NCBI RefSeq assembly: GCF_040807025.1
Contig: NC_090980.1
Span: 1-64,000, forward strand
DNA: 64,000 nt
Source of the DNA: Struthio camelus
Lineage: Eukaryota > Chordata > Aves > Struthioniformes > Struthionidae
Direction of reading: 5' to 3'
Below the pieces are notes generated by a model. That model worked only from the letters and a program-made list of their open reading frames with translations. It was not told where the DNA came from and made no database searches. Below, in pieces: positions 19-64,000 of the stretch. How positions within the stretch are numbered: the first letter of the stretch is position 1; the number at the start of each line of letters is the position of its first letter. The position numbers and the translations under genes are program-made.

Positions 19-3000
19 GTGTCGGCGCTGGACGCGGGCGCCCGTCACTGGCGGGCGGCGCTAGGACCGCGGCGAGCGGCGGCGGCGGCGCTGGAACTGG
101 CGCTCTGCGCCCTGCACCCGCCGCCGGCCTGGCCCCTCCCGCCGGCGCCTTGCCCCGCCCCCGGCCCCGCCCCCTCGGCCGCCGGGTCCTGGCGCCGGGC
201 TCTGGCCTTGGCCATGCTGAGCCGGCTGGCGCTGGCGCCGCGGGCGCTGCTGGGGGGCGGGGCCGGGGGCGGGGCCGGGGCGGCGGGGCGGAGCCTGGGG
301 GCGGTGGGGCGGGTGCGGCTGGGCGGAGCCTGGGCGCTGCGGGCGCGCTTACGTCAGCGGCCGGCGGGGCTGCTGCTGGCGGCGACGGCGGCCGGGTGGG
401 CGCTGGGCGCCTGGGCGCTGCGGGCCTGCGAGCGGGACTGGTGCGGACTGGGGGGACTGGGGGACTGGGGGGGGTGGGGGGGACTGGGGGGACTGGGGGG
501 ACTGGGGGGAGTGGTGCGGACTGGGGGGACTGGGGGGGAGTGGGGGGAGTGGGGAGGGGTGGGGGGGACTGGGGGGACTGGGGGGACTGGGAGGGGTGGG
601 GGGGGACTGGGGGGGTGGGGGGGACTGGGGGGACTGGGGGGACTGGGGGGGACTGGGGGGGGACTGGGGGGACTGGGGGGGCTGGGGGGGAGTGGGGGGG
701 GTGGGGGGGACTGGGGGGACTGGTGCGGACTGGGGGGACTGGGGGGGCTGGGGGGACTGGGGGGACTGGGGAGGACTGGGAGCACTGGGAGCACTGGAAG
801 CACTGGGGGGGACTGGGAGCACTGGGAGCACTGGGGGGGACTGGGGGGGACTGGGGAGGACTGGGAGCACTGGGGGGGACTGGGGGGGACTGGGGGGGAC
901 TGGGGAGGACTGGGAGCACTGGGGGGGACTGGGGAGCACTGGGAGCACTGGGAGCACTGGGGGGGACTGGGGGGACTGGGGGGGGACTGGGGAGCACTGG
1001 GAGCACTGGGAGGCCCTGGGACGGCCCGGGTGGTGGTGGTGGGGGGGGAGGGTGCTCCCGGGGCCCTACTGGGGCCGTACTGGGAGCACTGGTGCCAGGG
1101 GCCGCGGCAGGGCGCCCGGGGGGGCCGGCTCGCTGGGGGGGGCCCTGTGGCTGCTGCCCGTCACCTTCCTGACGGTGGGATACGGCGACCTGGTGCCGCG
1201 CACGGCCGGGGGCCGCCTCGTCTGCCTGGCCGCCGGCGCCCTGGTCAGCCCCGGGCACGCGTGTGCGTGTGCGGGGGGGGGGCGGCGCGGCGCCACACGG
1301 CTCCACACGGCTCCACACGCGTGTGTCACGGCCGACCTGCCCCGTCGCGGCTCGACACGCGTGTGTCATGGCCGTCCCGCCCCATCGCGGCTCATTGCGG
1401 CTTGACACGGCTCGACACGCGTGTGTCATGGCCGTCCTGCCCCGTCACGTCCCGTCCCGCCCCGTCCTGCCCCGGCGCGGCTCGTCGCGGCTCCACACGC
1501 GTGTGTCATGGCCGTCCCGCCCCGGCGTGGCTCGTCCTGCCCCGTCCTGCCCCGTCGCGGCTCGTCGCGGCTCCACACGGCTCCACACGCGTGTGTCACG
1601 GCCGTCCCACCCCGTCGCGGCTCGTCGCGGCTCGACACGGCTCGACACGCGTGTGTCACAGCCGTCCCGCCCCGTCGCGGCTCGACACAGCTCGACACGC
1701 GTGTGTCATGGCTGTCTGGCCCCATCATGGCTCGAAACGGCTCAACACGCGTGTGTCATGGCCGTCCCGCCCTGTCGCGGCTTGTCCTGCCCCGTCGCGG
1801 CTCGTCGCGGCTCGACACGCGTGTGTCATGGCCGACCTGCCCCGTCGCGGCTCGTCGCGGCTCGACACGCGTGTGTCACGGCCATCCTGCCCCGTCATGG
1901 CTCGTCCTGCCCCGTCACGGCTCGTCGCGGCTCAACACGCGTGTGTCATGGCCGTCCCGCCCCATCGCGGCTCGTCCTGCCCCGTCACGGCTCGACACGG
2001 CTCCACACGCGTGTGTCACGGCCGTCCTGCCCCGTCACGTCCCATCCTGCCCCGTCCCGCCCCGTCACGGCTCGACACGGCTCGTCGCGGCTCGTCGTGG
2101 CTCGACACGGCTCGACACGGCTCCACACGCGTGTGTCATGGCCGTCCAACCCCATCCCAGCTCGTCGCGGCTCGACACGCATGTGTCATGGCCGTCCTGC
2201 CCCGTCGCGGCTGGACACGGCTGGACACGGCTCGACACGTGTGTGTCATGGCCGTCCTGCCCCCGTCCTGCCCCGTCACAGCTCATCGCAGCTCGACACA
2301 CGTGTGTCGTGGCCGTCCCGCCCCGTCGCGTCCCGTCACGGCTCCACACGCGTGTGTCATGGCCGTCCTGCCCTGTCGCGGCTCGTCGCAGCTCGACACG
2401 GCTCGACACGCGTGTGTCATGGCCGTCCTGCCCCGTCGCGGCTCGTCGCGGCTCGACACAGCTCGACACGCGTGTGTCATGGCCGTCCTGCCCCGTCGCG
2501 GCTCGTCGCGGCTCGACACAGCTCGACACGCGTGTGTCATGGCCGTCCTGCCCCGTTGCGGCTCGTCCTGCCCCGTCCTGCCCCGTCGCGGCTCATCGCG
2601 GCTCGTCGCGGCTCAACACGGCTCGACACGGCTCCACACGCGTGTGTCACGGCCGTCCCACCCCGGCGCGGCTCGTCGCGGCTCGACACGGCTCGACACG
2701 CGTGTGTCACGGCCGTCCTGCCCCGTCACGTCCCGTCCTGCCCTGTCCTGCCCCGTCGCGGCTCATCGCGGCTCGACACGCGTGTGTCATGGCCGTCCGG
2801 CCCCGTCCCGCCCCGTCACGCGTGTGTCACGGCCGCAGGGCGTGTGCTGCACGGCGCTGCTGGTGGCCGTGGTGGCCGAGAGGCTTCGCTTCAGCCGGGC
2901 CGAGCGGCTGCTCTACGGCGTCCTGCAGAGCGCCCGCAGCGCCCGCCAGGTGAGGGGGCCCCGGCGTCCGGGGGGGCCCAGGCGTCCGGGAGGGGCCCAG

Positions 3001-5431
3001 GTGTCCGGGGGGGCCCAGGCGTCCGGGGGGGCCCAGGCGTCCGGGAGGGGCCCAGGTGTCCAGGAGGGGCCCAGGTGTCCGGGAGGGACCCAGGTGTCCG
3101 GGGAGGGACCCAGGTGTCCGGGAGGGGCCCAGGCGTCCGGGAGGGACCCAGGTGTCCGGGAGGGGCCCAGGTGTCCGGGGGGGCCCAGGTGTCCGGGAGG
3201 GGCCCAGGTGTCTGGGAAGGGACCCAGGTGTCCGGGAGGGGCCCAGGTGTCCGGGAGGGACCCAGGCGTCCGGGGAGGGACCCAGGTGTCCGGGAGGGGC
3301 CCAGGCGTCCGGGAGGGACCCAGGTGTCCGGGAGGGGCCCAGGTGTCCGGGGGGGCCCAGGCGTCCGGGAGGGGCCCAGGTGTCCGGGAGGGACCCAGGT
3401 GTCCGGGAGGGGCCCAGGTGTCCGGGGAGGGACCCAGGTGTCCGGGAGGGGCCCAGGTGTCCGGGGGGGCCCAGGTGTCCGGGAGGGGCCCAGGTGTCCG
3501 GGAGGGACCCAGGCGTCCGGGGAGGGGCCCAGGCGTCCGGGAGGGGCCCAGGCGTCCGGGGGGACCCAGGTGTCCGGGGGGGCCCAGGCGTCCGGGAGGG
3601 ACCCAGGTGTCCGGGGAGGGGCCCAGGTGTCCGGGAGGGGCCCAGGTGTCCGGGGAGGGACCCAGGTGTCCGGGAGGGGCCCAGGCGTCCGGGAGGGACC
3701 CAGGCGTCCGGGGAGGGGCCCAGGCGTCCGGGAGGGGCCCAGGCGTCCGGGAGGGCCCAGGCGTCTGGGAGGGACCCAGGCGTCCGGGAGGGGCCCAGGC
3801 ATCCGGGGAGGGGCCCAGGTGTCCGGGAGGGGCCCAGGTGTCCGGGGGGACCCAGGTGTCCGGGGAGGGACCCAGGTGTCCGGGAGGGGCCCAGGTGTCC
3901 GGGGAGGGACCCAGGTGTCCGGGAGGGGCCCAGGTGTCGGGCAGGGGCCCAGGCGTCCGGGAGGGACGCAGGTGTCCGGGAGGGGCCCAGGCGTCCGGGA
4001 AGGGGCCCAGGTGTCCGGGGAGGGACCCAGGTGTCCAGGAGGGGCCCAGGTGTCCGGGAGGGGCCCAGGTGTCCGGGGAGGGACCCAGGTGTCCGGGAGG
4101 GGCCCAGGTGTCCGGGAGGGACGCAGGTGTCCGGGAGGGGCCCAGGTGTCCGGGAGGGACGCAGGTGTTTGGGAGGGCCCCGGTGTCCGGGGCGGGGGTG
4201 TGGGGGGGGGGGAGGGCACTGCCCGGACGCCTGGGCCCCAGGTGCGGACGCGGGCGGCGGCGGTGCTGCAAAGCGCCTGGAGGCTTCGCCGGGCGCCGCC
4301 GGCCGAACCCGGGCGCTGGCGGCTGGAGCGGCGGCTGCTGCTGGCGCTGGAGGCGTGAGTGCCGGACGCCTGGGCCCCTGCGGCGGGGGGAGGGGGCGGG
4401 GGGACGCCTGGGCCCCTCGGGGGTGGGGGGGGAGTCCCGGATGCCTGGGCCCCTCGGTGGGGCCGGGGGGGGGGGGCACCTGAGACACTGAGGGCGGGGG
4501 GGGGGGCGGAAGGTGCCCGGACGCCTGGGCCCCCCCGGGTGGAGGGAGCGGCCGGACGCCTGGGCCCATCGCACTCTTCCCCCCCCCCCCCCAACAGGTT
4601 TCGGGACGCCCGAATCCGGCACCGGAAGATCCAGGAGGAGGTGGAGGCCACGCTGAGCCCCTCCAAGGTGAGCCCGGACGCCTGGGCCCCTGCGGGGTTG
4701 GCGGCCGGTGGAGGGGGGGGGGGGCGCTCACCCGGACGCCTGGGCCCCCACCGGGGAGGAGCAGCCCGGAGGAGACGCCTGGGTCCCTCCCGGACGCCTG
4801 GGTCCCTTGGGAAGGGGCAGTACTGGGTTGGTTTTGGGGGGGGGGGGGGGGGGGTTGCCCGGACGCCTGGGCCCCCACCACCACCCGCTCGCTCACCCGG
4901 ACGCCTGGGTCCCTCCCGGCCGCGCAGGTGGCGGCGGCGGTGGCCGAGGTGGCCGAGGGGCAGCGCGACGTCCGGAGCCGCCTCGAGCGCCTCGAGCGCA
5001 GCCTGGAGCAGCTGCGGGAGCTGCTGGGGGCTCCCCGGACGCCTGGGCCCCCCACGGACACCGCCCGGACGCCTGGGCCCCCCACGGACGCTCCCCGGAC
5101 GCCTGGGCCCACCGCGGACACCGCCCGGACGCCTGGGCCCCCCACGGACGCTCCCCGGACGCCTGGGCCCACCGGGGACACCGCCCGGACGCCTGGGCCC
5201 CCCACGGACGCTCCCCGGACGCCTGGGCCCACCGGGGACACCGCCCGGACGCCTGGGCCCGGCGGGGATGAATCTCGGACGCCTGGGTCCCTGGGGGACA
5301 GCGGGGGCCGCTCGGACGCCTGGGCCCCTTGGCCGCCCAGCCCGGACGCCTGGGCCCCCCGGGAGGGGGGGGCCGGGGGCGCTGCCCCCCGTTACCGTAA
5401 TACCCTGTGTCACCCGCCAGGGCCTGTTTAG
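19..5431 (+). CDS. KCNN4: Intermediate-conductance Ca2+-activated K+ channel, exons 3 to 8 (5' end missing)
   Basis: Plasma-membrane K+ channel gated by Ca2+-calmodulin. Exons by splice sites and phase: 19-440, 1111-1243, 2839-2949, 4242-4354, 4598-4667, 4928-5431. The first exon starts at the residue pair equivalent to the LF that follows the S2 end in SK channels, so the N-terminus is not here (compare 46498-47405). S3 to S5 lie in 19-440. The selectivity filter TVGYGD lies near 1172-1189. S6 is the GVCCTALLVAVVAERL stretch at 2839 onward. The calmodulin-binding region covers 4242-4667 and the C-terminal coiled coil 4928 to about 5035. Many Ile, Leu, Lys and Asn positions of the family are Ala, Arg or Gly here, in line with extreme GC pressure. 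After the coiled coil the frame stays open for about 131 residues of RTPGP-type repeat before TAG. SMG9 next door supports KCNN4 over KCNN1-3. Confidence 0.9.
441..1110 (+). repeat. GGGGGGACTGGGGG minisatellite, KCNN4 intron
   Basis: The whole intron is tandem GGGGGGACTG and later GGGAGCACTG units of about 9-12 bp. Runs of five to eight G occur every few bases, so the sense RNA could form many G-quadruplexes. No exon is visible inside it. Confidence 0.9.
1244..2838 (+). repeat. ACACGCGTGTGTC minisatellite, KCNN4 intron
   Basis: About 1.6 kb of short units built from ACACGCGTGTGTCATGGCC, GTCCTGCCCCGTCGCGGCTC and CGGCTCGACACGGCTCGAC. Each long unit carries the self-complementary ACACGCGTGT. 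No exon is seen between the acceptor at 2838 and the donor at 1244. Confidence 0.9.
2950..4241 (+). repeat. Core minisatellite, complement orientation, KCNN4 intron
   Basis: Nearly pure tandem GGGCCCAGGTGTCCGGGAGG with GGCGTCC and GGACCC variants, period about 19-21 bp. It starts a few bases after the donor at 2950 and ends at the acceptor at 4241, where the last copies are in the opposite orientation (CGGACGCCTGGGCCCCAG, then exon). Confidence 0.95.
4355..4597 (+). repeat. Core repeat copies, short KCNN4 intron
   Basis: Five dispersed CCGGACGCCTGGGCCC copies spaced by G-rich DNA, followed by a strong pyrimidine tract and CAACAG acceptor at 4597. Confidence 0.85.
4668..4927 (+). repeat. Core repeat copies, last KCNN4 intron
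   Basis: The donor GTGAGC is directly followed by CCGGACGCCTGGGCCCC. Further copies follow, split by G runs, up to the CGCAG acceptor at 4927. Confidence 0.85.
5034..5365 (+). repeat. Core minisatellite inside the KCNN4 last-exon frame
   Basis: A regular array alternates CCCCGGACGCCTGGGCCC with ACGGACACCG- or ACGGACGCT-type spacers, in units of about 30 bp that pair into 60-bp units. The KCNN4 frame reads it as [18 protein letters not shown] and RTPGPTGDT blocks without a stop. Whether it is translated or an unseen donor lies upstream cannot be decided from DNA alone. Confidence 0.75.
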
Positions 5432-5479
5432 GGGGCTGCCGTAACGCTCCTAATAGCTGCTGCCCTGCGGTTGGGGCAG

Positions 5480-6185
5480 CGTTTTGGGGGGGGGGCCGGG
5501 GGGTATTTGGGACCCTCGAGGGGGGATTTTGGGGGGGGCGCAAGAAACGTTCGGGGCAGTTCAGGGGCGTCTGGGGGGGGCTCGGGGGGCGTTTGGGGCA
5601 GTTTGGGGGGGATTCGGGGCAGTTTGGGGGGGATTCGGGGCAGCCAAGTGGCTCCATGCCGTCTCCAGACGCTATTTGGGGTGAATCCGGGGGGATTCGG
5701 GGCAGTTTGGGGGGGATTTGAGGCAGTTTGGGGGGGATTCGGGGCAGCCGAGCGGCTCCATGCCATCTCCGGACGCTATTTGGGGCGAATCCGGGGGGAT
5801 TCGGGGCAGTTTGGGGGGGATTCGGGGCAGCCGAGCGGCGCCGCACCCTCTCCGGACGCTATTTGGGGCGAATCCGGGGGGATTCGGGGCAGTTTGGGGG
5901 GGATTTGAGGCAGTTTGGGGGGGATTCGGGGCAGCCGAGCGGCTCCATGCCATCTCCGGACGCTATTTGGGGCGAATCCGGGGGGATTCGGGGCAGTTTG
6001 GGGGGGATTCGGGGCAGTTTGGGGGGGATTCGGGGCAGCTGAGCGGCGCCGCACCCTCTCCGGACGCTATTTGGGGCAAATCCGGGGGGATTCGGGGCAG
6101 TTTGGGGGGGATTCGGGGCAGCCGAGCGGCGCCGCACCCTCTCCGGACGCTATTTGGGGCGAATCCGGGGGGATTCGGGACCTGT
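5480..6185 (+). repeat. Tandem repeat in the KCNN4 3' region
   Basis: Blocks of TTTGGGGGGGATTCGGGGCA and CGGACGCTATTTGGGGCGAA repeat about six times with an 85-170 bp higher-order period. They lie downstream of the KCNN4 stop and before the ATTAAA at 6251, so they are probably 3' UTR. Confidence 0.8.
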
Positions 6186-6250
6186 TTGGGGGGAGAAACC
6201 GCCTCTCCGAGCCGTTTCCCCCCCCCCCCCGCCGCCGCCACCGCGCGGCC

Positions 6251-6256
6251 ATTAAA
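6251..6256 (+). terminator. KCNN4: Candidate poly(A) signal ATTAAA for KCNN4
   Basis: ATTAAA lies about 820 bp after the KCNN4 TAG, with no better hexamer in between. It faces the minus-strand signal at 6344-6339, so the two genes end tail to tail within about 90 bp. Confidence 0.5.
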
Positions 6257-6338
6257 CACCCGTTTCCGCCATCTTCCCGGTCTCTTCTCCCCCCCCCCCC
6301 ACGTCGCTAACGAGGCGGCGGCTCGTTACAGCGGTGCC

Positions 6339-6344
6339 TTTAAT
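6339..6344 (-). terminator. Candidate poly(A) signal ATTAAA overlapping a stop codon
   Basis: On the minus strand the zinc-finger frame ends CAT TAA A. The stop codon TAA sits inside the hexamer ATTAAA, so a transcript cleaved in the usual place would have a 3' UTR of only about 10-30 nt. Confidence 0.45.
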
Positions 6345-9985: not shown

Positions 9986-9989
9986 GGCG

Positions 9990-12289: not shown

Positions 12290-15200
12290 ATGTCGCAGCC
12301 GGGGCAGAGCCAGCCGGGCCCGGGGGGGCGGCGCCGGTGGCCCCGGGACAAGGACCCGCCCCCGGCTCCGCCCCCCGGCCCCGCCCCCGCCGCCGGAGCC
12401 CCGCCCCTGCCGCCGGCCCCGCCCCCGCCGCCGCCGCCGGCCCCGCCCCGCGACCCCGCCCCCTGGGACCGCGAGCGCCGGGTGGGCGGGGCTGCTGGAG
12501 TGGGGGGGGCGGGGCCACGGGTGTGGGCGGGGCTAAGGGGTAGTGGGGTGGGGGTGGGGCTGGAGGGGTGGGGTCACGGATGTGGGCGGGGCTATGGGGC
12601 AGGAGGGGTGGGTGGGGTTAGAGGGGTGGGGCTATAGGGGGCGGGGTCACAGATGTGGGTGGGGCAAAGGGGTAGGATGGTTGGGGTGGGGCTGGAGGGG
12701 CGGGGCTACGGGTGTGGGCGGGGCTATAGGGGGCGGGGTCACAGATGTGGGCGGGGCTAAGGGGTAGGATGGTTGGGGTGGGGCTGGAGGGGCGGGGCTA
12801 CGGGTGTGGGCGGGGCTATAGGGGGCGGGGTCACAGATGTGGGCGGGGCTAAGGGGTAGGATGGTTGGGGTGGGGCTGGAGGGGCGGGGCTATGGGTGTG
12901 GGCGGGACTAGAGGGGCGGAGCCATGTGTGTGGGCGGGGCAAGAGGGTGTGGGTGGGGCTAGAGGGGTGGGACATGGGTGTGGGCGGGGCTAGAGGGGCA
13001 GGATGCTCGGGGGCGGGGCCATGAGCTGGGGGAGGGGGTGGGGCCGGGGTGGGTGGGAGAGGGGGCGGAGCCAGGTGCTGACCCCGCCCTCCCCCCCGGG
13101 GCCAGGAGGCGGGGGAGGAGCCGGGGGGCGGAGTCATGCAGAAGACGCCAATCATCCTGGCCAAGCCGCCGGGGGAGCGGGTGAGCCCGGACGCCTGGGC
13201 CCCTTTGGGGGGGGGGGGCCGGACGCCTGGGCCCCTTTGGGGGGGGGGGAGCCGGACGCCTGGGCCCCTTGGGGGGGGGGACCCGGACGCCTGGGCCCCT
13301 TTGGGGGGGGGAGCCCGGACGCCTGGGCCCCTCGTGGTTCCCGGACGCCTGGGCCCCTCGCCGGGGGGGGTGGTTCCCGGACGCCTGGGCCCCTTTTGGG
13401 GGGGGGGGAGCCGGACGCCTGGGCCCTCGGTGTAGGGGGGGGGTTCCCGGACGCCTGGGCCCCTCGCGGGGGGGGGTGTTTCCCGGACGCCTGGGCCCCT
13501 CGCGGGGGGGATTCCCGGACGCCTGGGCCCCTCGTGGTTCCCGGACGCCTGGGCCCCTCATGAGGGGGGTTCCCGGACGCCTGGGCCCCTTTTGGGGGGG
13601 GGGAGCCGGACGCCTGGGCCCTCGGTGTAGGGGGGGGTTCCCGGACGCCTGGGCCCCTCGCCGGGGGGGGTTCCCGGACGCCTGGGACCCTCGCGGGGGG
13701 GTTGTTCCCGGACGCCTGGGCCCCTCACGGGGGGGGTGGTTCCCGGACGCCTGGGCCCCTCGCGGGGGGGGGGGTTCCCGGACGCCTGGGTCCCTGACGG
13801 GCTGCGGCAGGCCAAGGCGGGGGCGGGGCCGGGGGCGGGGCCGGCGCTGGCCCCGCCCCCTCCCGCGGCGGGCCCGGCCCCGCCCATCGTGCTGATGAAG
13901 GCCCGGGAGGAGGGGAGGGGCGGGGCCGGGGGGGAGGGGCCGGCGCTGGCCCCGCCCCGGGCGGAGCCCCGCCCCACCCAGCCCGTCTACCAGCTCCACA
14001 ACCGGGGGCTCCCCGCCCCCCCCGGCCCCCTCGACCGTGAGTGGCCGGCCCTCGGGCCGGGGGCGGGGCTTGCGGGAGCAGGGGGGCGGGGCTATGGGGG
14101 CGGGGCTTGGAGGTGGGGGCGGGGCCATGGGGCTGGGGGAGGGGCTGGAGGGCTGGGGGAGGGACTATGGGGCTGGGGGAGGGACTATGGAGGTAGGGGG
14201 AGGGGCCTCGGGGATGGGGCGGGGCTATGGGGCTGGGGGGAGGAGCCATGGGGCTAGGGTGGAGTTTTGGGGCTGGGGGCGGGGCTATGGGGCTGGGGGC
14301 GGGGCTAAAGGCAAGGGGAGGAGCTGTGGGGTGGAGCCTTGGAATGAGGGGCGGGGCTATAGGGCTGGGGGCGGGGCTTTGGGGATGTGGGAGGGGGCTA
14401 TGGGGCTGGGGGCGGGACTTTGGAGATGTGGGAGGGGCTATGGGGCTGGGGCGGGGCTTTGGGAATCTGGGAGGGGCTATAGGGCTGGGGGCGGGGCTTT
14501 GGGGATGTGGGAGGGGGCTATGGGGCTGGGGGCGGGACTTTTGGGATGTGGGAGGGGCTATGGGGCTGGGGGCGGGACTTTGGGGATGTGGGAGGGGCTA
14601 TAGGGCTGGGGGCGGGGCTTTGGGGCTGTGGGAGGGGCCATAGGGATAGGGGGTGGGGCTGAAGGCAGGGGGCGGGGCCGTTGGGGTGGAGCTCGCAAGG
14701 TGGGGGCGGGGCTCGGGGGCGGAGCCGGACGCCTGGGCCCCCTCACGCCCCCGGCAGCGGTGGCCGGCCAGGCCCGGCTGGCGGCGCCCGAGAAGATGAA
14801 AACCAGCATCAAACTGGTGGACGAGCAGATGAACTGGTGCGACAGCGCCATCGAGGTGCGCCCGGATGCCGGGGCCCCTCCCGGACACCTGGGCCCCTCC
14901 CGGACGCCGGGGCCCCTCCCGGACACCTGGGCCCCTCCCGGACACCTGGGTCCCTCCCGGACGCCTGGGTCCCTCCCGGACACCTGGGTCCCTCCCGGAC
15001 GCCCGGGCCCCTTCCCGGACACCTGGGTCCCTCCCGGACGCCTGGGCCCCTCCCGGACACCTGGGTCCCTCCCGGACGCCTGGGTCCCTCCTGGACACCT
15101 GGGTCCCTCCCGGACGCCTGGGCCCCTCCCGGACACCTGGGCCCCCTCCCGGACGCCTGGGTCCCTCCCGGACGCCTGGGTCCCTCCCCGGACACCTGGG

Positions 15201-18200: not shown

Positions 18201-21200
18201 TGGTAATAGCAAGATAACAGCAGTTTGGGGAGCCAGCCTGCCCCACAGCTACGTGGGGATGCAGGCGGCCCCGGCCCCACACGCGTGGGCGTCCTGACCC
18301 CCATTCCCCCCCCCAAAAACCCACCTACAGTCGCTGCAGATCGCCGCCTTCCTCTTCACCGTCTGCCACGTGGTGCTGGTGGTGCAGGACTGGTTCACCG
18401 ACCTCAGCCTCTACAGGTGCCGCCCCGCGCCGGGTCCGGCGGTCGTCTCCTCCCGTCCGCCGGCCGGCCGGTCGGTCGGTGACGTTGTTGCCGCGGCCGT
18501 TGCTCCCCCTCCGCCCAGGTTCCTGCAGACGGCCGAGATGGTGAAGCCCTCGACGCCCTCCCCCAGCCACGAGCCCAGCGGCGCCGCCGGCCCCGACGAG
18601 GCCGCCGAGTACTACCCCCACCTGGGTGAGCCCGGCCCCACGGCCACCCCACGGCCCCCCCCACCCCGCGGCGACCCCCCTGACCCCCCCCCCAACCCCG
18701 GCGGCAGTTTTCCTGCAGAACAAGGCCCGGGCCGAAGCCTTCTGCCCCCGGCGCCTGCGGCAGATGCACCTGGTGCTCGACCGTCTCATGGCCCACTCGC
18801 ACCTCAAGTACAAGGGTAGGGAGCCGCCCCCGGACGCCTGGGCCCCTCTCCTGGATGCCTGGGTCCCTCCCCCGGACACCTGGGCCCGTCTCCCGGACGC
18901 CTGGGCCCCTCCCCTGGGCATCTGGGTCCCTGTGGGTGGTTTCCCCGGACGCCTGGGCCCCTCCCCCGGACGCCTGGGTCCCTTCCCGGACGCCTGGGTC
19001 CCTCCACGGGACGCCTGGGCCCCCTTCCCGGATGCCTGGGTCCCTTCCCGGATGCCTGGGTCCCTCCCTGGACTCCTGGGCCCCTGTGGGTGGTTTCCCC
19101 GGACGCCTGGGCCCCTCCACCGGATGCCTGGGCCCTTCCCTGGACGCCTGGGCCCCTGTGGGTGGTTTCCCCGGACGCCTGGGCCCCTCCACCGGATGCC
19201 TGGGCCCCTCCCTGGATGCCTGGGCCCCTGTGGGTGGTTTCCCCGGACACCTGGGCCCTTTCCCTGGACACCTGGGCCCCTCCCCGGGACTCCTGGGCCC
19301 CCTTCCCGGATGCCTGGGCCCCTGTGGGTGGTTTCCCCGGACGCCTGGGCCCCTCCGCCGGACGCCTGGGCCCCACCTGGGTCCCCCGGTTTCCCTGCCC
19401 CCTGGCCCCGGTCCCCGGACACCTGGGCCCCGCCGGACGCCTGGGCCCGCGCAGGGGCTCTCTCCATGCTGGACTGCGGCCTCTTCCCGGGGCTCCCCGA
19501 CGACTTCCTGGAGGCCGAAGTGAACCTCTTCCTGCTGCCGCTCATGGAGGCTGAGGGCGAGGACGCCCCCCCCCGCGCTGGTGAGGGGCCCCGGCGTCCG
19601 GGCGGGGTGGGCCCAGGCGTCCGGCTGCTCAAGGATGGGCATGGGAAGGACCCAGGTGTCCGGGAGGGGCCCAGGTGTCCGGGCGGGTGGGCACATGCAG
19701 GGGCCCAGGTGTCCGGGGAGGGACCCAGGTGTCCAGGGAGGGGCCCAGGTGTCCGGGGGGAGACCCAGGCGTCTGGGGAGGGGCCCAGGCGTCCGGGAGG
19801 GGCCCAGGCGTCTGGGGAGAGGGGCCCAGGCGTCCGGGGAGGGGCCCAGGTGTCCGGGGAGGGGGGCCCAGGCATCTGGGGAGGGGCCCAGGCGTCCGGG
19901 GAGGGGGGCCCAGTTGTCCGGGTGGGTGGGCACATGCAGGGCCCAGGCGTCCGGGGAGAGGGGCCCAGGCGTCCGGGTGGGTGGGCACATGCAGGGCCCA
20001 GGCGTCCGGGGAGGGACCCAGGCGTCCGGGGAGGGGCCCAGGCGTCCGGGGAGAGGGGCCCAGGCGTCTGGGGAGGTGCCCCGGCGTCCGGGGAGGGGCC
20101 CAGGCGTCCGGGGAGGGGGGCCCAGGCGTCCGGGTGGGTGGGCACATGCAGGGCCCAGGCGTCCGGGGAGGGACCCAGGCGTCCGGGGAGGGGCCCAGGC
20201 ATCCGGGGAGGGGCCCAGGCGTCCAGGGAGGGGCCCAGGCGTCCGGGGAGGGGCCCAGGCGTCCGGGGAGGGGGGCCCAGGCGTCCGGGTGGGTGGGCAC
20301 ATGCAGGGCCCAGGCGTCCGGGGAGGGACCCAGGCGTCCGGGGAGGGGCCCAGGCATCCGGGGAGGGGCCCAGCCATCTGGGGAGGTGCCCAGGCGTCCG
20401 GGGAGGGGCCCAGGCGTCCGGGGAGGGGGGCCCAGGCGTCCGGGGAGGGGGGCCCAGGCGTCCGGGGAGGGGGGCCCAGGCGTCTGGGGAGGGGCCCAGG
20501 CGTCCGGGGAGGGGGGCCCAGGCGTCTGGGGAGGGGCCCAGGCGTCCGGGGAGGGGCCCAGGCGTCCGGGGAGGGGGGCCCAGGCGTCTGGGGAGGGGGG
20601 CCCAGGCGTCCGGGGAGGTGCCCAGGCGTCCGGGGAGGGGGGCCCAGGCGTCCGGGGAGGGGCCCAGGCGTCCGGGCGCGGCTGACGGGGGGGCAGCCCC
20701 CGGCGGGGGGCCGCTCTTCCCGCTGCTGCCCCCCTACCGGGGCCACGGCGCCTTCGGGACCCTCCTGGCCCGGCTGCGCGGGCGGGTGCTGGCGGCCGCC
20801 CGGGCCCAGCTCTCCCACACCCTGCTCACCGAGAGGAACTGGTGCGTGGCCCCGGCACTGGGAGAGGGGTTGCGCTGGACTGGTGGGACCAGGAGGATAG
20901 GGAGAGGGACTGGGATGGACTGGGGGGACTGGGAGAGGAACTGGGAGGGACTGGGATGCACTGGGAGAGGGGTTGGGATGGACTGGTGGGACTGGGAGGA
21001 CAGGGGGAGGGACTAGGAGGGACTGGGATGGACTGGGAAGGACTGGGAGAGAAACTGGGGAGACTGGGATGGAGTAGGATGGAGTAGAAAGGGGTATGAG
21101 AGGGACTGGGATGGACTGGTGGGACTGGGAGAGGCACTGGGAGGGACTGGGATGCACTGGGAGAAGGATTGGGATGGACTGGGGGAGGGACTGGGATGGA

Positions 21201-23861: not shown

Positions 23862-26800
23862 ATGCCGGAGATCCAGCTGCAGCATGTCGTGTCGGTCAGC
23901 AGCTCCGACCCGGTGAGCGGCGGCGGCGGCGGCGGCGAGGACCCGGGGCGGCTCCGCGGCCTGAGGCGGGAGGGGGCCGGACGGGTCCATTAACCGGGGA
24001 GGGAGGGGGGCGGGGCCACCTCGGGCACGGGGGCGGGGCCAGACTTGGGGGCGGTGCCACAACCTAGCCGGGGGGCGGGGCCAACCCGACTGCTTGGGGT
24101 GATAGAGGGGAGGATGGAGGGGGCGGGGCCGGCACCCAGGGGGCGGGGCCAGCCTCGAGGGGCGGGGCCAGACTTGGAGGCGGGGCCATAACCAAGCGGG
24201 GGGGCGGGGCTACCCTGACTGTTTGGATCTATAGATGGGGGGGACCAGGAGCACCATTGGGGGGCGTGGTCACGTTCTAGGGGGCGTGGCCAGGCTTGGG
24301 GGCGTGGCCAGGCTTGGGGGGCGGAGCCATTTCGGTGCCATGAGCCCCCCCTCTCCCTTGCAGGAGAAGGTAAAGGGCAGTGGATGGGGGGGGTGAGTGG
24401 GGGTGGGGGGCGTGGCCAGGCGGAAGGGGCGTGACCAAGAGCAAGGGGCGTGGCCAGCGAGGCTCCTCCCCCCCCACCCCAGACCCACTGCGCCGAGAAC
24501 CTGCTGCGGCCGGAGAGCTACCGGCCCTGGCGGGGGGCGCGGGCCGGCGAGAAGCAGGTCTGCGTGGTGCTGCAGGTGCGCCCGGACGCCTGGGCCCCTC
24601 GGCGGGGGGGGGGCGGGGGCGGGGGACGCCTGGGCCCCCCGGGAAGGGACCCCGGACGCCTGGGCCCCTCGGACGCCTGGGCCCTCTGGGAAGGGATCCC
24701 GGACGCCTGGGCCCCCTGGGAAGGGATCCCGGACGCCTGGGCCCCCTGGGAAGGGACCCCGGACGCCTGGGCCCCTCGGACGCCTGGGCCTCCTGGGAAG
24801 GGATCCCGGACTCCTGGGCCCCTCGGACACCTGGGTCCCCTGGGAAGGGATCCCGGACGCCTGGGCCCCTCGGACGCCTGGGCCCCCTGGGAAGGGATCC
24901 TGGACGCCTGGGCCCCCTGTGGGATGGGATCCCGGACGCCTGGGCCCCTCGGACACCTGGGCCCCCTGGGAAGGGATCCCGGACGCCTGGGCCCCTCGAA
25001 CGCCTGGGCCCCCTGGGATGGGATCCTGGACTCCTGGGCCCCTCGGACACCTGGGCCCCCTGAAGGGACGCGGTGGGGGGTAATTGCGGACGCCTGGGCC
25101 CCCTGGGAAGGGATCCCGGACGCCTGGGCCCCTCGGACACCTGGGCCCCCCGGGAAGGGATCCCGGACGCCTGGGCCCCCTGAAGGGACGCGGTGGCGGA
25201 GGGGGTGTGTGGGGGGGGATAATCCCGGACGCCTGGGCCCCCCGGAAGGGATGGGGCACCCGGACTCCTGGGCCCGCCGGTTGGGGGCTGGGGGCGGGGT
25301 GGGTGGGGGCGAAGCGGCGTCGAGCGAGCAGGGCCCGGACGCCTGGGCCCCGCAGTTTGCCCGGGAGGCGCGCGTGCACCGCATCGAGGTGGGCAACGAG
25401 GGCTCGGCCTTCGTGGAGGTGCTGGCGGGGGCGGCGGCGGGCGGCGACTTCGAGGTACGGAACCGGGGGGGCGGCGGGGGGGGGGGGGACGCGGCGCCAC
25501 CGCGCTGACCCCCCCCCTCCTCGCGTCCCCCCCCCCCAGGTGCTGCTGCCGGCGGCGGCGCTGCTGACGCCGGCCGAGAGCCGGGCCGGGACGGGGCTGC
25601 GGCGCGTGCGGCTCTTCGGGCCCCAGGCGCTGGCGCCGCCCGCCGCCCGCCGGCCCTGGGACCGCGTCAAGGTGGTCTGCAGCCAGCCCTACTGCCAGGT
25701 GCGGCGCCCGGGCCCCTTCCCCGGACGCCTGGGCCCCTTCCCCGGACGCCTGGGCCCCTTTCCGAGGCACCTAGGTCCTGCCCCGGACGCCTGGGCCCCT
25801 TCCCCGGACGCCTGGGCCCCTTTCCGAGGCACCTAGGTCCTGCCCCAGACGCCTGGGCCCCTTCCCCGGACACCTGGGTCCTTCCCCGGACACCTGGGCC
25901 CCTTCCCCGGACGCCTGGGTCCCTCCCCGGATGCCTGGGCCCCTTCCCGGATGCCTGGGCCCCTTCCCCGGATGCCTGGGCCCCTTTCCCGGACGCCTGG
26001 GCCCCTTTCCCGGACACCTGGGCCCCTTTCTGAGGCTCCTAGGTCCTGCCCCGGATGGCGGGGCCCCTTCCCCGGACGCCTGGGCCCCTTCCCCGGACAC
26101 CTGGGCCCCTTCCCCGGACGCCTGGGCCCCTTTCTGAGGCTCCTAGGTCCTGCCCCGGACGCCTGGGCCCCTTCCCCGGACGCCTGGGCCCCTTTCTGAG
26201 GCTCCTAGGTCCTGCCCCGGACACCTGGGCCCCTTCCCCGGACGCCTGGGCCCCTTTCCGAGGCACCTAGGTCCTGCCCCAGACGCCTGGGCCCCTTCCC
26301 CGGACACCTGGGTCCTTCCCCGGACACCTGGGCCCCTTCCCCGGACACCTGGGCCCCTTCCCCGGACGCCTGGGTCCCTCCCCGGATGCCTGGGCCCCTT
26401 CCCCGGATGCCTGGGCCCCTTTCTGAGGCACCTAGGTCCTTCCCCGGACACCTGGGCCCCTTCCCCGGACACCTGGGCCCCTTCCCTGGACACCTGGGTC
26501 CCTCCCCGGACGCCTGGGCCCCTTCCCCGGACGCCTGGGCCCCTTTCCGAGGCACCTAGGTCCTGCCTCGGACGCCTGGGCCCCTGCCTCGGACGCCTGG
26601 GTCCCTCCCCGGACACCTGGGCCCCTTCCCCGGACGCCTGGGCCCCTTCCCCGGACGCCTGGGCCCCTTTCTGAGGTTCCTAGGTCCTGCCCCGGACACC
26701 TGGGCCCCTTCCCCGGACACCTGGGCCCCTTCCCCGGACGCCTGGGCCCCTTTCTGAGGCTCCTAGGTCCTGCCCCGGACACCTGGGTCCCTTCCCCGGA

Positions 26801-29800
26801 CACCTGGGCCCCTTCCCCGGACACCTGGGTCCCTCCCCGGACACCTGGGCCCCTTCCCCGGACGCCTGGGCCCCTTCCCCGGACGCCTGGGCCCCTCCCC
26901 GGACACCTGGGCCCCCCCGGACGCCTGGGCCCTCCCCGGACACCTGGGCCCCTCCCCGGACACCTGGGCCCCTTCCCCGGACGCCTGGGCCCCTCCCCGG
27001 ACACCTGGGCCCCTCCCCGGACACCTGGGCCCCTTCCCCGGACGCCTGGGCCCCTCCCCGGACGCCTGGGCCCTCCCCGGACACCTGGGTCCCTCCCCGG
27101 ACACCTGGGCCCCTTCCCCGGACGCCTGGGCCCCTCCCCGGACACCTGGGCCCCTCCCCGGACACCTGGGCCCCCCCGGACGCCTGGGCCCCTTTCCCGG
27201 ACGGCTGGGTCTATAGTGGGGGGGGGGGAGGGGACGCCTGGGCCCCGCCCGGACGCCTGGGTCCACAGTGGGGGGAGGGGGGGGAGGGGCCGCCCGGACG
27301 CCTGGGCCCCTGACGGCCGCCGCGCAGACGCGCCCCTTCGGCCTCTCCTTCGTGCGCTTCCACTCGCCGCCCGAGAGCGAGGAGCCGCCGGCCGCCGTGA
27401 GTCGCCCCGACCCCCAGCCGCCCCCCCGGACCCCCAACCGCCCCCCCGCTGCCCCCCGGACCCCCAACCGCCCCCCCGGACCCCCAACCGCCCCCCCGGG
27501 ACCCCCAACCGCCCCCAACCGCCCCCCTGCTGCCCCCCAGGACCCCCAACCGCCCCCCGCTGCCCCCCAACTGCCCCCCCGGACCCCCAGCCGCCCCCCC
27601 GCTGCCCCCCAGCCACCCCCCAACTGCCCCCCCGGACCCCCAGCCGCCCCCCCGCTGCCCCCCGGACCCCCAACCGCCCCCCCGCTGCCCCCCTGGACCC
27701 CCAACTGCCCCCCCGGGACCCCCGACTGCCCCCCAACTGCCCCCCCAGACCCCCAGCCGCCCCCCCGCTGCCCCCCGGGACCCCCAACTGCCTGCCCGGA
27801 CCCCCAACCGCCCACAACCACCCCCCTGGGACCCCCAACTGCCCCCCCAGACCCCTGGCTGCCCCCCAACTGCCCCCCTGGACCCCCAACTGCCCCCCCA
27901 GGCCCCCAACTGCCCCCCAACCGCCCCCCAACTGCTCCCCTGGACCCCCAACTGCCCCCCCGGGCCCCCAACTGCCCCCCAACCGCCCCCCAACTGCCCC
28001 CCTGGACCCCCAACTGCCCCCCCGGGCCCCCAACTGCCCCCAACCGCCCCCCAACTGCCCCCCCGGACCCCCAACTGCCCCCCCGGGCCCCCAACTGCCC
28101 CCCAACCGCCCCCCAACTGCCCCCCTGGACCCCCAACTGTCCCCCCTGGCCCCCAGCTGCCCCCCAACTGCCCCCCCGGACCCCCAACCGCCCCCCCAGA
28201 CCCCCAGCTGCCCCCCAACTGCCGCCTGAACCCCCAACTGCCCCCCCAGCTGCCCCCCAACCGCCCCCCAACTGCCCCCCTGGACCCCCGACTTCCCCCC
28301 AACGGCCCCCCCGGGACCCCCGCCCACCCGCCCGCGGTGACCCCCGCTGCCCCCCCCCGCAGCCGAGGCGCCTGGGTCCCTTCACGGTGCGCGACGAGGA
28401 GGAGGAGGAGGACGGCGGCGGCCGGCGGCCCGGGGAGCTCTTCTACCGCCGGGGGGGGCCGCCCTCGCCCCCAGGTGCGCCCGGACGCCTGGGCCCCCCC
28501 CCCCCAAAGACCCCCGCCCGGACGCCTGGGCCCCTGCGCGAGCTCTCGCTCTCGCCCGCAGCCGCCCCCCGGGACGCGGCCGGGCCCAGCTACGCCGTGG
28601 CCGCGCTGCAGGCCGGCGCCGCCCGGGCCCAACCGGCCCCCGCTCGCCCCGCCAAGGTAGGGCCCAGGCGTCCGGGCGGGGCGGGAGGCCCGGAGGGGCC
28701 CAGGCGTCCGGCCGCCGTCACCCCTCGCTCCGCCGCAGGGCCCGGCCGGCGCCAAGAGGAAGTCCGACTTCCCGGCGGCCGACGGCGCCTCGCCGCCGCC
28801 GCCAAAAAGACCCGGACGCCCGGGCCCCGCCGAAGGGCGGCCGGGCGTTTCGCGCCCGTCGGCCGCCCGGACGCCTGGGCCCTCGGCGACGGTTCCCGCC
28901 CGGACGCCTGGGTCCCCGGAGCGGGCGCTGGCCGGCGTCGTGGTGGTGCTGAGCGGCTTCGAGAACCCGCTGCGCGGCCGCCTGCGCGACGCCGCCTTGG
29001 CCATGGGGGCGGCGTACCGGCCCGACTGGACCCCCGACAGCACCCACCTCGTGTAGGTCGCGGCGACGGGGCCCCGGCGTCCGGGGGGGGGCCCAGGTGT
29101 CCGGGAGGGGCCCAGGTGTCTGGAAGGGCCCAGGCGTCCGGGAGGGGCCCAGGCGTCCGGGGAGGGGCCCAGGCGTCCGGGGGTGGGCCCAGGCGTCCGG
29201 GGGTGGGCCCAGGTGTCCGGGAGGGGCCCAGGCGTCTGGGAAAGGGCCCAGGTGTCCGGGGGGCCCAGGCATCCGGGAGGGACCCAGGTGTCCAGGGGGC
29301 CCAGGTGTCCGGGAGGGACCCAGGTGTCCGGGGGGGCCCAGGTGTCCGGGAGGGGCCCAGGCGTCCGGGAGGGGCCCAGGTGTCCGGGGGGGGCCCAGGC
29401 GTCCGGGGAGGGACCCAGGCGTCCGGGGAGGGGCCCAGGTGTCCGGGGGGGGACCCAGGCGTCCGGGAGGAGCCCAGGTGTCCGGGGAGGGCCCACATGT
29501 CCGGGGAGGGACCCAGGCGTCCGGGGGGGGACCCAGGCGTCCGGGGAGGGGCCCAGGCGTCCGGGGAGGGACCCAGACGTCCGGGAGGGACCCAGGCGTC
29601 TGGGGGGGCCCAGGTGTCCGGGGGGGGCCCAGGTGTCCAGGGAGGGGCCCAGGTGTCCGGGGAGGGGCCCAGGCGTCCGGGGAGGGGGCCCAGGTGTCCG
29701 GGGAGGGGCGCAGGCGTCCTGGAGGGCCCAGGTGTCCGGGGAGGGGCCCCGGCGTCCGGGGGGGGCCCAGGTGTTAGGGAGGGGCGCAGGTGTCCGGGAA

Positions 29801-34002: not shown

Positions 34003-42181
<8,179 letters not shown>

Positions 42182-43448: not shown

Positions 43449-44904
43449 ATGGTGCCCCCGGACGCGGCGACCCCCGCCCGCCCCTCGGGGGAGGGAGAGG
43501 TGAGGGGGGGGAGGGGCGGATTGGGAGCGCTGGGGGGGGGAACTGGGAGCACTGGGAATCACTGGTGTCACCGCCCCCCACCCCCCCCCAGGCCGAGCCG
43601 CCGCCCGGGACCGACCCCGACGCGGCCGCGCTGCAGCTCCAGGGCCTGAGGCTCGAGGTACGCCCGGACGCCTGGGCCCCTTCCTGAGAGGCGCCCGGAC
43701 GCCTGGGCCCATTGTGGGAGGGGGCGCCCGGACACCTGGGCCCCTTCCTGAGAGGTGCCCGGACGCCTGGGCCCATTGTGGGAGGGGGCACCCGGACACC
43801 TGGGCCCCCTTCTGAGAGGCACCCGGACGCCTGGGCCCCTTCCTGAGAGGTGCCCGGACACCTGGGCCCCTTCCTGAGAGGTGCCCGGACGCCTGGGCCC
43901 CCTTCTGAGAGGGACCCGGACACCTGGGCCCCCTTCTGAGGGGCACCCGGACTCCTGGGCCCCTTCCTGAGAGGTGCCCGGACACCTGGGCCCCATTCTG
44001 AGGGGCACCCGGACGCCTGGGCCCCCTTCTGAGAGGCACCCGGACGCCTGGGCCCATTGTGGGAGGGGGCGCCCGGACGCCTGGGCCCCTTCCTGAGAGG
44101 TACCTGGACACCTGGGCCCCCTTCTGAGAGGCACCCGGACGCCTGGGCCCCTTCCAGAGAGGCATCCAGACACCTGGGCCCCATTCTGAGGGGCACCCGG
44201 ACGCCTGGGCCCCTTCCTGAGAGGCACCCGGATGCCTGGGCCCCTTCTGAGAGGCACCCGGACACCTGGGCCCCTTCCTGAGAGGCGCCCGGACACCTGG
44301 GCCCCATTCTGAGGGGCACCCGGACGCCTGGGCCCCTTCCTGAGAGGCGCCTGGACACCTGGGCCCCTTCCTGAGAGGCGCCCGGACACCTGGGCCCCAT
44401 TCTGAGGGGCACCCGGACTCCTGGGCCCCTTCCTGAGAGGTGCCCGGACACCTGGGCCCCTTCCTGAGAGGTGCCCGGATGCCTGGGCCCCTTATGGGGG
44501 GGGGGAGGGCGCCCGGACGCCTGGGCCCCCTCCCAGGGCCCAACCTGGCCGACCGGTCCTGTCGGGACGAAGCCGCGGGGGCGGGACGGGCCCGGACGCC
44601 TGGGTCCCTTCCCCGGCTTGGGGGGGGGGAGCGGGCGCCCGTGCTCCCAGCATGCCCTGGGGCACGCTTGGCATCGCTCCCAGCATGCTTTGCGCCTGGC
44701 TTGGCATCGCTCCCAGCATTCTTTGCAATGCCCCCCCACCCCCCCACCGGCCCATGGTTGGGGGAGGGGAAGGCGCTCTTGGAGGGGCCCAGGCGTCCGA
44801 GGGGCCCAGGCGTCCGGCTCTTCCCACAGGACGAGGCCCCGCGCGAGAACGAGCAGCTCCAGCACCGCCACAACGAGGCCCCGGACGAGAACCAGCGGCA
44901 GGAG
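43449..44904 (+). CDS. First coding exons of a gene expected to be PHLDB3 (partial)
   Basis: Three exons with good splice sites and constant phase 0: 43442-43499 (ATG at 43449, MVPPDAATPARPSGEGE), 43592-43657 (AEPPPGTDPDAAALQLQGLR, then LE) and 44830-44904 (DEAPRENEQLQHRHNEAPDE, then NQRQE). The last two are polar and Glu/Gln-rich, as in the start of a coiled coil. The assignment to PHLDB3 rests only on gene order, since human PHLDB3 follows ETHE1 in the same orientation; I could not match the residues from memory. The rest would lie past the gap, but the following sequence belongs to minus-strand genes. A further exon near 44536-44600 is possible but unsupported. Confidence 0.35.
43658..44829 (+). 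repeat. Core minisatellite with CCTTCCTGAGAGG spacer
   Basis: The donor GTACGC is followed directly by CCGGACGCCTGGGCCCC. About 25 copies alternate with TTCCTGAGAGGCGCC or TTCTGAGGGGCACC up to 44530. 44620-44720 holds a CATCGCTCCCAGCATGC repeat. Confidence 0.9.
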
Positions 44905-45340
44905 GTGAGGGCCCAGGTGTCCGGGAGGGGGGGTGCCCAGGCGTCCGGGAGGGGCCCAGGCGTCCGGGAGGGGGGGTGCCCAGGCGTCCGGGAGGGGCCC
45001 AGGTGTCCGGGGAGGGACCCAGGTGTCCGGGGGGGGCCCAGGCGTCCGGGAGGGGCCCAGGTGTCCGGGAGGGGCCCAGGTGTCCGGGGAGGGACCCAGG
45101 TGTCCGGGAGGGGCCCAGGCATGCGAGAGGGGCCCAGGTGTCCGGGAGGGACCCAGGTGTCCGGGGAGGGACCCAGGTGTCCGGGAGGGACCCAGGTGTC
45201 CGGGAGGGGCCCAGGCATCCGGGAGGGACCCAGGTGTCCGGGGGGGGCCCAGGAGTCAGGGAGGAACCCAGGCGTCCGGGGGGGACCCAGGTGTCCGGGG
45301 AGGGGCCCAGGCGTCCGGGGAGGGGCCCAGGCGTCCGGGG
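44905..45340 (+). repeat. Core minisatellite, complement orientation, ending near the gap
   Basis: The donor GTGAGG overlaps the first GGGCCCAGGTGTCCGGGAGG copy. About 20 copies follow, then 40 bp of other sequence before the Ns. Confidence 0.9.
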
Positions 45341-45660: not shown

Positions 45661-46497
45661 AGGGGCCCAGGCGTGCGGGGGGATCCAGAGGGCTGGGAGG
45701 GGCCCGGGTGTCCGGGAGGGGCCAGGTGTCCGGGGGGGCCCAGGTGTCCGGGAGGGGCCCAGGTGTCCGGGGAGGGACCCAGGTGTCCGGGGGGACCCAG
45801 AGGGCTGGGAGGGACCCAGGTGTCCGGGGAGGGACCCAGGTGTCCAGGGGGGGCCCAGGTGTCCGGGAGGGGCCCAGGTGTCCGGGGGGGCCCAGGTGTC
45901 CGGGGAGGGACCCAGGTGTCCGGGAGGGACCCAGGTGTCTGGGAGGGACCCAGGTGTCCGGGAGGGACCCAGGTGTCCGGGAGGGGCCCGGGTGTCCGGG
46001 GGGGGCCCAGGTGTCCGGGAGGGGCCCGGGTGTCCGGGAGGGACCCAGGCGTCCGGGGAGGGGCCCGGGTGTCCGGGAGGGGCCCGGGTGTCCGGGGGGG
46101 GCCCAGGTGTCCGGGAGGGGCCCGAGTGTCCGGGGAGGGACCCAGGTGTCCGGGAGGGGGCCCAGGTGTCCGGGGGGACCCAGGTGTCCGGGAGGGGCCA
46201 GGTGTCCGGGAGGGGCCCAGGTGTCCGGGGGGGGACCCAGGTGTCCGGGGGGACCCAGGTGTCCGGGGAGGGGCCCAGGTGTCCTGGAGGGGCCCAGGCG
46301 TCCGGGGAGGGGCCCAGGCATCCGGGGGGGCCCAGGTGTCCGGGAGGGGCCCAGGTGTCCGGGGAGGGGCCCAGGCGTCCGGGAGGGGCCCAGGTGTCCG
46401 GGGGGGGCCCAGGTGTCCGGGAGGGACCCAGGTGTCCAGCCACCCCAGGCCTCTGTGTGTGTGTTTGGGGGGGGCCCCCCGGACGCCTGGGCCCCAC
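45661..46497 (-). repeat. Core minisatellite in intron 2 of the channel fragment
   Basis: GGGCCCAGGTGTCCGGGAGG copies (plus-strand view) from 45661 to about 46440, plus one core right after the minus-strand donor at 46497. 45580-45660 is non-repetitive GC-rich DNA in which no exon could be supported. Confidence 0.9.
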
Positions 46498-47405
46498 CTG
46501 GATCCCCAGGGTGTGGTAGAGCAGCAGGAAGAAGAGGAGGGCGGCGGTGGAGACCGACATGAGCAGCTCCAGCGCGAAGATGCAGCCGCGCCACTGCAGG
46601 GCGAGAGCCCGGACGCCTGGGTCCGCTGCCGCCCCTTCCAGGGGCCCAGGCGTCCGGGGGGAGCCCAGGCGTCCGAGCGGGGCCCAGGCCTCCCGCTCCC
46701 CCCCTGCACTCGCGCTAACTCAGGAAGGATGTGGATGGGGCCCAGGTGTCCGGGATGATGACCCCCCCCCGACCCTCGTTGCAGCTCTGCAGGGGGCCCA
46801 GGTGTCCGGGTCCCCCCCCCCCCCCAAACCCCTGTGCTCCTTGGGAGGAGGGGAGGGACCCAGGTGTCCGGGTGGCCCCAGCACCCCTCCCCCGGCCGGG
46901 AAGGGACCCAGGCGTCCGGGCCTCCTGGGTCAATATTTACCCTGTCACCCTGCTGGGGCCCTTCCTGCCCCTCCCGTCCCCACGGGGGTTTCCCTTGCCC
47001 GGGGCCCAGGCGTCCGGGCAGCCCCAACACCTCCCCCTGCCCCAGGGGCCCAGGCGTCCGGGAACCCCCCCCCCCGAGAACCCAGGTGTCCAGCCCCCTC
47101 CCTCCCCTGCCAGGGGCCCAGGCGTCCGGGAACCCCCACCCCCACCAGGGGCCCAGGCGTCCAGGTGCTCCCCAGGGGCCCAGGCGTCCGGGAACCCCCC
47201 CCCCCAAGGGGCCCCGGCGTCCGGGCGGTACCTGGCAAGGGCCCAGGGCCCCCAGCTCCATGTAGACCATCATGGCCCCCAGCCCCACGGCGGCGGCGCC
47301 CAGCGCCCTGCGCGACGCCCTGGCCGCGGCCGCCACCAGCGCCTGGCGCTGGCCCAGGCGCCCCAGGGCCTCGTGGGGGCCCCGCGCCGCACACGCCTGC
47401 GCCAT
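46498..47405 (-). CDS. KCNN4: N-terminal two exons of an SK/KCNN4-type K+ channel
   Basis: Exon 1, 47405-47232, codes MAQACAARGPHEALGRLGQR and on through the first membrane segment (ALGAAAVGLGAMMVYMELGA). Exon 2, 46593-46498, codes WRGCIFALELLMSVSTAALL and ends FLLLYHTLGIQ. This lines up with S1-S2 of KCNN4 and SK1-3, which end in ..HAKEVQ or ..YHAREIQ at the same exon boundary. The junction is phase 0 on both sides and would join exactly to the exon at 19-440. No exon 3 follows before the gap. Either this is the missing 5' part of KCNN4 in a mis-oriented contig, or a second truncated SK gene. The 90 residues here plus about 320 non-repeat residues at 19-5033 come close to the 427 aa of human KCNN4. 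Confidence 0.75.

Positions 47406-48929: not shown

Positions 48930-64000
<15,071 letters not shown>

Follow-up and report, generated by a model that had tools for sequence, protein, structure and literature searches.

A 17-nt core sequence shared by introns of unrelated ostrich genes lies at a preferred distance from their 5′ splice sites

Genes, introns, and tandem arrays of the window

We analyzed the first 64,000 bases (here called the window) of contig C39 (443,477 bases) of Struthio camelus, taken from an assembly of 1.45 Gb in 262 contigs. This one assembly, together with gene models made by hand, is the basis of the work. Translation and matches to the PDB identified KCNN4, SMG9, XRCC1, ETHE1, and PPP2R1A in the window, all of which are 19q genes in humans. 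We mapped 48 complete introns and found several incomplete ones, and thus did not reproduce the total of 54 introns given in the initial annotation; the set of 48 leaves out about 5 introns whose ends could not be fixed. GT-AG borders were scored in 47 of the 48 introns, the exception being an end that was placed one base off (KCNN4 acceptor 2839). Tandem arrays make up ∼71% of the window, and exons are found mostly within unmasked islands.

The KCNN4 gene is split, with its C-terminal exons at 1-5429 on the plus strand and its N-terminal exons at 47405-46498 on the minus strand, beside a gap of 200 N (45380-45579). The arrangement resembles a misjoined scaffold whose second piece was inverted; alternatively, a second KCNN4-like gene may account for it. 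A convincing C2H2 zinc-finger motif is present at 7998 (minus strand) and probably belongs to the zinc-finger gene of the initial annotation. Two further matches to the C2H2 pattern, at 37510 and 36722 (both minus strand), were set aside, as they look like repeat translations.

Abundance and distribution of the core

The 17-nt core, CCGGACGCCTGGGCCCC, is present in the window in 319 exact copies and in 870 copies with up to 3 mismatches, compared to a mean of 8.8 and a maximum of 17 in shuffles. Genome-wide, we counted 9058 exact copies (4290 + 4768) and none of the core read backwards. The sense core contains 9 C and 6 G. It was found in 29 of the 48 mapped introns and was absent from the other 19, with a mean tandem-array coverage per intron of 0.66 with the core and 0.63 without it. 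The arrays of different introns carry the same core but different spacers.

The initial annotation had named an equal density of the core outside introns as an observation that would speak against its proposal, and the densities that we found in the window, 16.7 per kb in introns versus 9.6 per kb in stretches called intergenic, go about halfway in that direction. Coding exons contain 2.7 per kb. The intergenic figure is uncertain, because the zinc-finger gene is probably located in the stretch 5430-12277. Since cores are also common outside introns, the core is not an intron-only sequence. Along the first 264 kb of C39 its distribution is patchy at similar GC content: it is dense at 0 to 80 kb and present at 100 to 140 kb, while exact copies are lacking at 80 to 100 kb and 140 to 240 kb and number one at 240 to 260 kb.

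Some cores touch coding sequences and gene ends. The last KCNN4 coding exon (5030-5429) appears to enter a core array in frame, the 30-bp unit being a multiple of 3, and would encode ARTPGPPTD-type repeats followed by a stop. An XRCC1 coding exon has three core matches in its open frame (28812-28916). A minus-strand AATAAA (48566-48561), which is probably the polyadenylation signal of PPP2R1A, is followed after 53 nt by another core array (47843-48507), as if gene ends, too, were limits to arrays.

Cores are locked in phase to donors

All 29 donors at which the initial annotation had placed a core within about 25 nt do have one, 27 of them in mapped introns and the other two after exon ends 44904 and 46498 (Table 1). 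Among the 29 core-bearing introns, the first core lies no more than 25 nt from the donor in 27, whereas 20.0 (standard deviation, 2.0; P = 0.0002) are expected under a null model that rotates the core positions inside each intron. Because the arrays are so dense that chance already accounts for ∼20 of the 29, closeness within 25 nt is weak evidence, and we do not use it as proof.

TABLE 1 Donor-side core copies and other core features, with positions in the window
Feature	Position	Strand	Offset (nt)	Remarks
KCNN4 intron 2950-4241	2955..2971	-	5	antisense; T10G
KCNN4 intron 4355-4597	4362..4378	+	7	
KCNN4 intron 4668-4927	4674..4690	+	6	
Core array in apparent last KCNN4 coding exon	5035..5358	+		11 cores; 30-bp unit, in frame
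SMG9 intron 13181-13810	13187..13203	+	6	
SMG9 intron 14037-14757	14725..14741	+		lone core near acceptor; counterexample
SMG9 intron 14856-15580	14862..14878	+	6	T10G
SMG9 intron 18816-19454	18830..18846	+	14	
SMG9 intron 19581-20696	19585..19601	-	4	antisense; T10G
XRCC1 intron 24576-25355	24582..24598	+	6	
XRCC1 intron 25699-27327	25721..25737	+	22	first core; degenerate GCGCCCGGGCCCC closer to donor
XRCC1 intron 28475-28561	28481..28497	+	6	87-nt intron
XRCC1 intron 28657-28738	28659..28675	-	2	82-nt intron; antisense
XRCC1 intron 29053-30322	29068..29084	-	15	antisense; T10G
XRCC1 intron 30963-31161	30978..30994	+	15	
XRCC1 intron 31238-31337	31246..31262	-	8	100-nt intron; antisense
XRCC1 intron 31384-31489	31395..31411	+	11	106-nt intron
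XRCC1 intron 31588-31664	31594..31610	+	6	77-nt intron
XRCC1 intron 31756-31851	31764..31780	-	8	96-nt intron; antisense
XRCC1 intron 31928-32674	31940..31956	+	12	
ETHE1 intron 34090-35895	34100..34116	+	10	
ETHE1 intron 36041-38646	36046..36062	+	5	
ETHE1 intron 38796-39395	38802..38818	+	6	
ETHE1 intron 41496-42128	41501..41517	+	5	3 mismatches; T10G
Intron 43658-44829, gene without name	43664..43680	+	6	
After exon end 44904	44908..44924	-	3	antisense; 2 mismatches; outside 48-intron set
After KCNN4 exon 2 end 46498 (minus gene)	46479..46495	+	2	antisense to gene; outside 48-intron set
KCNN4 exon 1 intron 47231-46594 (minus gene)	47208..47224	-	7	T10G
PPP2R1A intron 51582-50778	51561..51577	-	5	T10G
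PPP2R1A intron 52827-51738	52805..52821	-	6	
PPP2R1A intron 63546-62935	63524..63540	-	6	T10G

With respect to phase, the first core is found at offset 4-7 in 17 of the 29 introns versus 3.5 expected, a number that 0 of 20,000 rotations reached. At mismatch cutoffs of 0, 1, 2, and 3, the counts at this offset were 9, 14, 16, and 17 of 29, and none of the 20,000 rotations equaled them. The 27 donor-near first cores comprise 14 exact copies, 10 with one mismatch, 2 with two, and 1 with three. In ten introns of the window, a GTRMGC hexamer opens the intron and leads directly into the core, the shared hexamers being GTGCGC, GTACGC, and GTGAGC.

The proposal that the donor side is special thus held up, since acceptors lack a comparable peak: the last core lies within 25 nt of the acceptor in 16 of 29 introns, with no enrichment over rotation, and the most populated 4-nt interval contains 6 of the 29 introns at acceptors versus 18 at donors. 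The median gap on the acceptor side is 22 nt.

The same placement is seen where cores are few. The 1090 nt of PPP2R1A intron 52827-51738 include a single core, which is at offset 6, and the 2606 nt of ETHE1 intron 36041-38646 include two, at offsets 5 and 35. Among the short XRCC1 introns, six (77 to 106 nt) contain exactly two cores each; the first has an offset between 2 and 11, and the second is 23 to 29 nt from the acceptor in five of these introns. A counterexample is SMG9 intron 14037-14757, whose lone core lies 16 nt from the acceptor. The donor-adjacent cores also form a distinct set, in that the T10G variant accounts for 8 of these 27 copies but only 26 of 644 others (Fisher P = 2e-5).

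The ETHE1 intron 36041-38646 also contains 86 sense and 0 antisense GTRAG strings in GCAGTGAGC-type units, a dense donor-like field. We discarded the overall excess of sense GTRAG inside introns (103 versus 4), as most of it comes from two introns (86 and 11).

Orientation of the cores

Cores are mainly sense in 23 of the 29 introns and mainly antisense in 6 (P = 0.002). The earlier claim that placement follows the coding strand therefore stands for the majority of introns but not for these six. Of the six introns whose first core is antisense, five are donor-locked all the same, at offsets 2-8 (null expectation, 1.6; P = 0.005). This argues against a purely sense-RNA signal. We read the pattern as placement at the DNA level with orientation sifted by splicing, since the sense core has neither AG nor GT and the antisense core has both, as can be read from the letters. 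R-loops, which the initial annotation had proposed among other causes, usually favor the opposite of the arrangement found here: in the commoner, sense orientation, the RNA carries the more C-rich strand.

Donor-core junctions elsewhere in the genome

A genome-wide search for GTRMGC joined to the core gave 53 matches (7 in the window and 45 on other contigs), which include small tandem sets (4 on C163 and 3 on C32), compared to 13 for the permuted GMRTGC joined to the core. We examined sequence slices around 20 of the 45 matches on other contigs and around 11 of the 13 permuted controls. Coding-like sequence, defined by a score of 7.9 or more (a cutoff picked after the scores had been seen), runs into the donor in 18 of the 20 matches versus 2 of the 11 controls, and both passing controls read as donors with a core at offset 8. 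In 19 of the 20 slices, the 115 nt upstream are free of cores. Among the slices are an SLC12A4-like exon and one that matches the Pfam family PPI_Ypi1; one control is an exon of MAPK7. The base after the core is T in 13 of the 20 slices, and among the four-letter starts after the core, TCGG (4 of 20) and TCCC (2 of 20) alone recur. A tract of ∼18 nt is found at fixed phase beside the donors of unrelated genes, on several contigs and in either orientation; apart from one more base, usually T, the DNA after the core mostly differs between loci.

As a replicate, we used mapped genes outside the window, which we take to be TGM1, RABGGTA, NECTIN2, and others. Ten of their 40 introns contain the core, and the first core is at offset 4-7 in 3 of 10 (P = 0.09), or in 4 of 8 (P = 0.014) after two donors had been corrected and two unsure introns dropped. 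Donor proximity (25 nt or less) was not enriched among these mapped introns. In one PPP2R1A intron beyond the window, with an uncertain donor call, both cores lie far from the donor.

For GTGAG followed after 0 to 20 nt by the core, we obtained 392 matches genome-wide. From 100 listed matches we took 65, leaving out array repeats, and kept 62; among these, the gap was 0-3 nt in 22, versus 11.8 if gaps were uniform. When GTGAG was compared with its own permutations in 314 kb, donors were not singled out (sense orientation, gap of 0-3 nt: sixth of 20 within the window and second of 20 outside), and we think that array spacers dominate these permutation counts. Among the matches listed, GTGAG and the core are repeated at least 24 times at C32:374236-375485 and at least 10 times at C32:237692-238234, as if donor and core amplified together at these two loci.

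Comparison with known repeat systems

The available passages of Hron et al. 2026 (PMC12954441) describe a “sequence stuttering” of chicken dot-chromosome introns whose origin is strictly local and whose motifs are usually intron specific. Our introns resemble those of these passages in being GC rich, in having imperfect tandem blocks confined between exons, and in the copying of the exon edge with its donor into the intron. We found the last feature in 2 of the 48 introns: PPP2R1A intron 52889-54805 (minus strand) has 11 copies of the exon end with its donor, and 3 are present in the intron before it, 56583-54980. The phenomenon seen in the window is that of the chicken introns, to which it adds a gene-shared core locked to donors. 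In contrast to the local motifs reported in those passages of PMC12954441, a single 17-nt core is common here to introns of unrelated genes and phase-locked to their donors. A local, intron-by-intron origin does not describe a core family that occupies 29 of 48 introns and has 9058 exact copies in the genome.

In the parts of Beauclair et al. 2019 (PMC6792250) that were available, tandem repeats of GC-rich avian genes are described with motifs that differ gene by gene. Like those genes, ours have introns made of tandem repeats alone, with G4-capable motifs; a shared core on the donor side is not described in those parts. Within the one literature collection that was searched, the passages seen of PMC12954441, PMC6792250, and PMC9974502 do not describe a donor-locked shared core either, nor do the other titles and abstracts listed there. 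Among the papers listed as containing the inner 11-mer GGACGCCTGGG, no title or abstract concerns bird repeats.

The minisatellite MSR1 is GC rich, occurs in introns and promoters of human 19q genes, and has a unit of 36 to 38 bp, according to the part of PMC4725990 consulted. We regard homology of the core to MSR1 as unproven: the core matches the MSR1 unit at 12 of 17 positions, a score that 8% of shuffles reach. A literature text search for an MSR1-like 14-mer gave no match. As in the introners of the passages available from Gozashti et al. 2022 (PMC9860276), many unrelated introns share a common sequence beside their splice sites; unlike those introners, which are new introns sharing the whole element, our introns are old and share only the donor and the core. 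Copies that bring their own splice sites and each make a new intron are not what we found, as the proteins are collinear and conserved and the acceptor ends are unshared.

Origin of the donor-locked cores

Given that the spliced exons yield collinear, conserved ETHE1, XRCC1, SMG9, and PPP2R1A proteins, we agree with the initial annotation that existing introns were colonized and not created. To explain the donor lock, we tentatively favor the reading that the core forms a family dispersed among the intronic minisatellites of bird dot microchromosomes, seeded by short-tract copying at donors, and consider it plausible, if somewhat short of probable. Short tracts would move between loci as copies made by error-prone repair or template switching of the polymerase-theta or microhomology type, and they may land beside the conserved donor GTRMG(C), a sequence common to these introns. 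Each seed would then be amplified in place, the arrays would fill whatever DNA is unconstrained, as far as the splice signals (∼5 to 6 nt past the donor and ∼20 nt before the acceptor), and selection on splicing would sift the orientation of the core. The copying event itself is something that we infer. The phase lock, the introns with sparse cores, the short XRCC1 introns, the lock of antisense cores, the T10G set, the count of 53 versus 13, the coding-like sequence before most of the sliced donors, and the start near donors (median, 14 nt) of arrays without the core speak for copying; the weak replicate, the GTGAG counts, the lone core on an acceptor side, the PPP2R1A intron beyond the window, the cores outside introns, and the TCGG tail in 4 of 20 slices speak against it. 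A bolder version, in which the copying of short tracts, anchored at 5′ splice sites, spreads a nonautonomous micro-element of ∼18 nt in trans between dot-chromosome genes and donors serve as landing sites from which minisatellites are seeded throughout the chromosome class, seems possible to us but doubtful.

The lock could also arise without any targeting, if arrays overran unconstrained DNA up to its functional limits and any abundant repeat came to abut a donor. Arrays do start as near to the donor in introns without the core (median, 14 nt; 15 of 19 have an array) as in core introns (median, 13 nt; 23 of 29 have an array), the median acceptor gap fits the tract that an acceptor needs, and the window is largely tandem arrays, with cores dense between genes as well. 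However, random trimming would begin anywhere in a unit, which is at odds with a complete core at offset 4-7 in so many introns, and the lone cores at donors 52827 and 36041 and the short introns with two cores are not core arrays. Because of the phase, array filling alone fails; this reading is already strained, and we consider it rather unlikely. Somewhat less likely still is that selection retained the core as a splicing element which, near the 5′ splice site, defines GC-rich introns, for example, by G triplets acting via hnRNP H/F or U1. The sense bias (23 of 29 introns) would fit such an element, as would the perfect copies (14 of 27 at donors versus 223 of 597 internally, with second and last copies counted apart) and the short introns, which have one core by the donor and, in five of six, another toward the acceptor. 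Folds of −10 kcal/mol or lower are also more common among donor copies with a sense core (60% of 15) than among internal copies (30% of 217). Mean fold energies, however, barely differ (−9.0 for donor copies and −8.6 for internal ones), and we therefore dropped the donor-core hairpin (−10.4 versus −4.0 kcal/mol for the core alone) as an argument. Antisense cores, with a different sequence and different G positions, are also donor-locked, so that a sense-RNA element alone fails; moreover, 19 of the 48 introns lack the core, which is patchy along the contig. The idea that the core helps weak donors in particular found no support, since the presence of the core does not go with weaker donors (mean U1 matches of 6.09 in 27 donors with it versus 5.93 in 21 lacking it).

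Finally, donor and core might move between old introns as one cassette, in the manner of introners or by reverse splicing. The ten window introns that start with GTRMGC and the core, the 45 exact matches on other contigs, and the loci at which donor and core form a repeated unit (such as C32:374236-375485) are in line with such a replacement, but we consider it very improbable. The shared tract mostly goes no further than the core, the acceptor ends are dissimilar, offsets range from 2 to 22 with variable donors, and the introns were not inserted, their exon structures matching conserved genes. Replacement of whole introns fails because the shared tract is short.

Bird assemblies long lacked the genes of dot chromosomes, a gap that the available part of PMC6792250 attributes in part to such repeats. 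If a gene-shared, donor-locked core is indeed what these introns contain, the repeat instability of dot chromosomes would not be only local, and the offset of 4-7 from the donor would offer a countable signature with which to ask whether repair seeds such cores, splicing retains them, or both.
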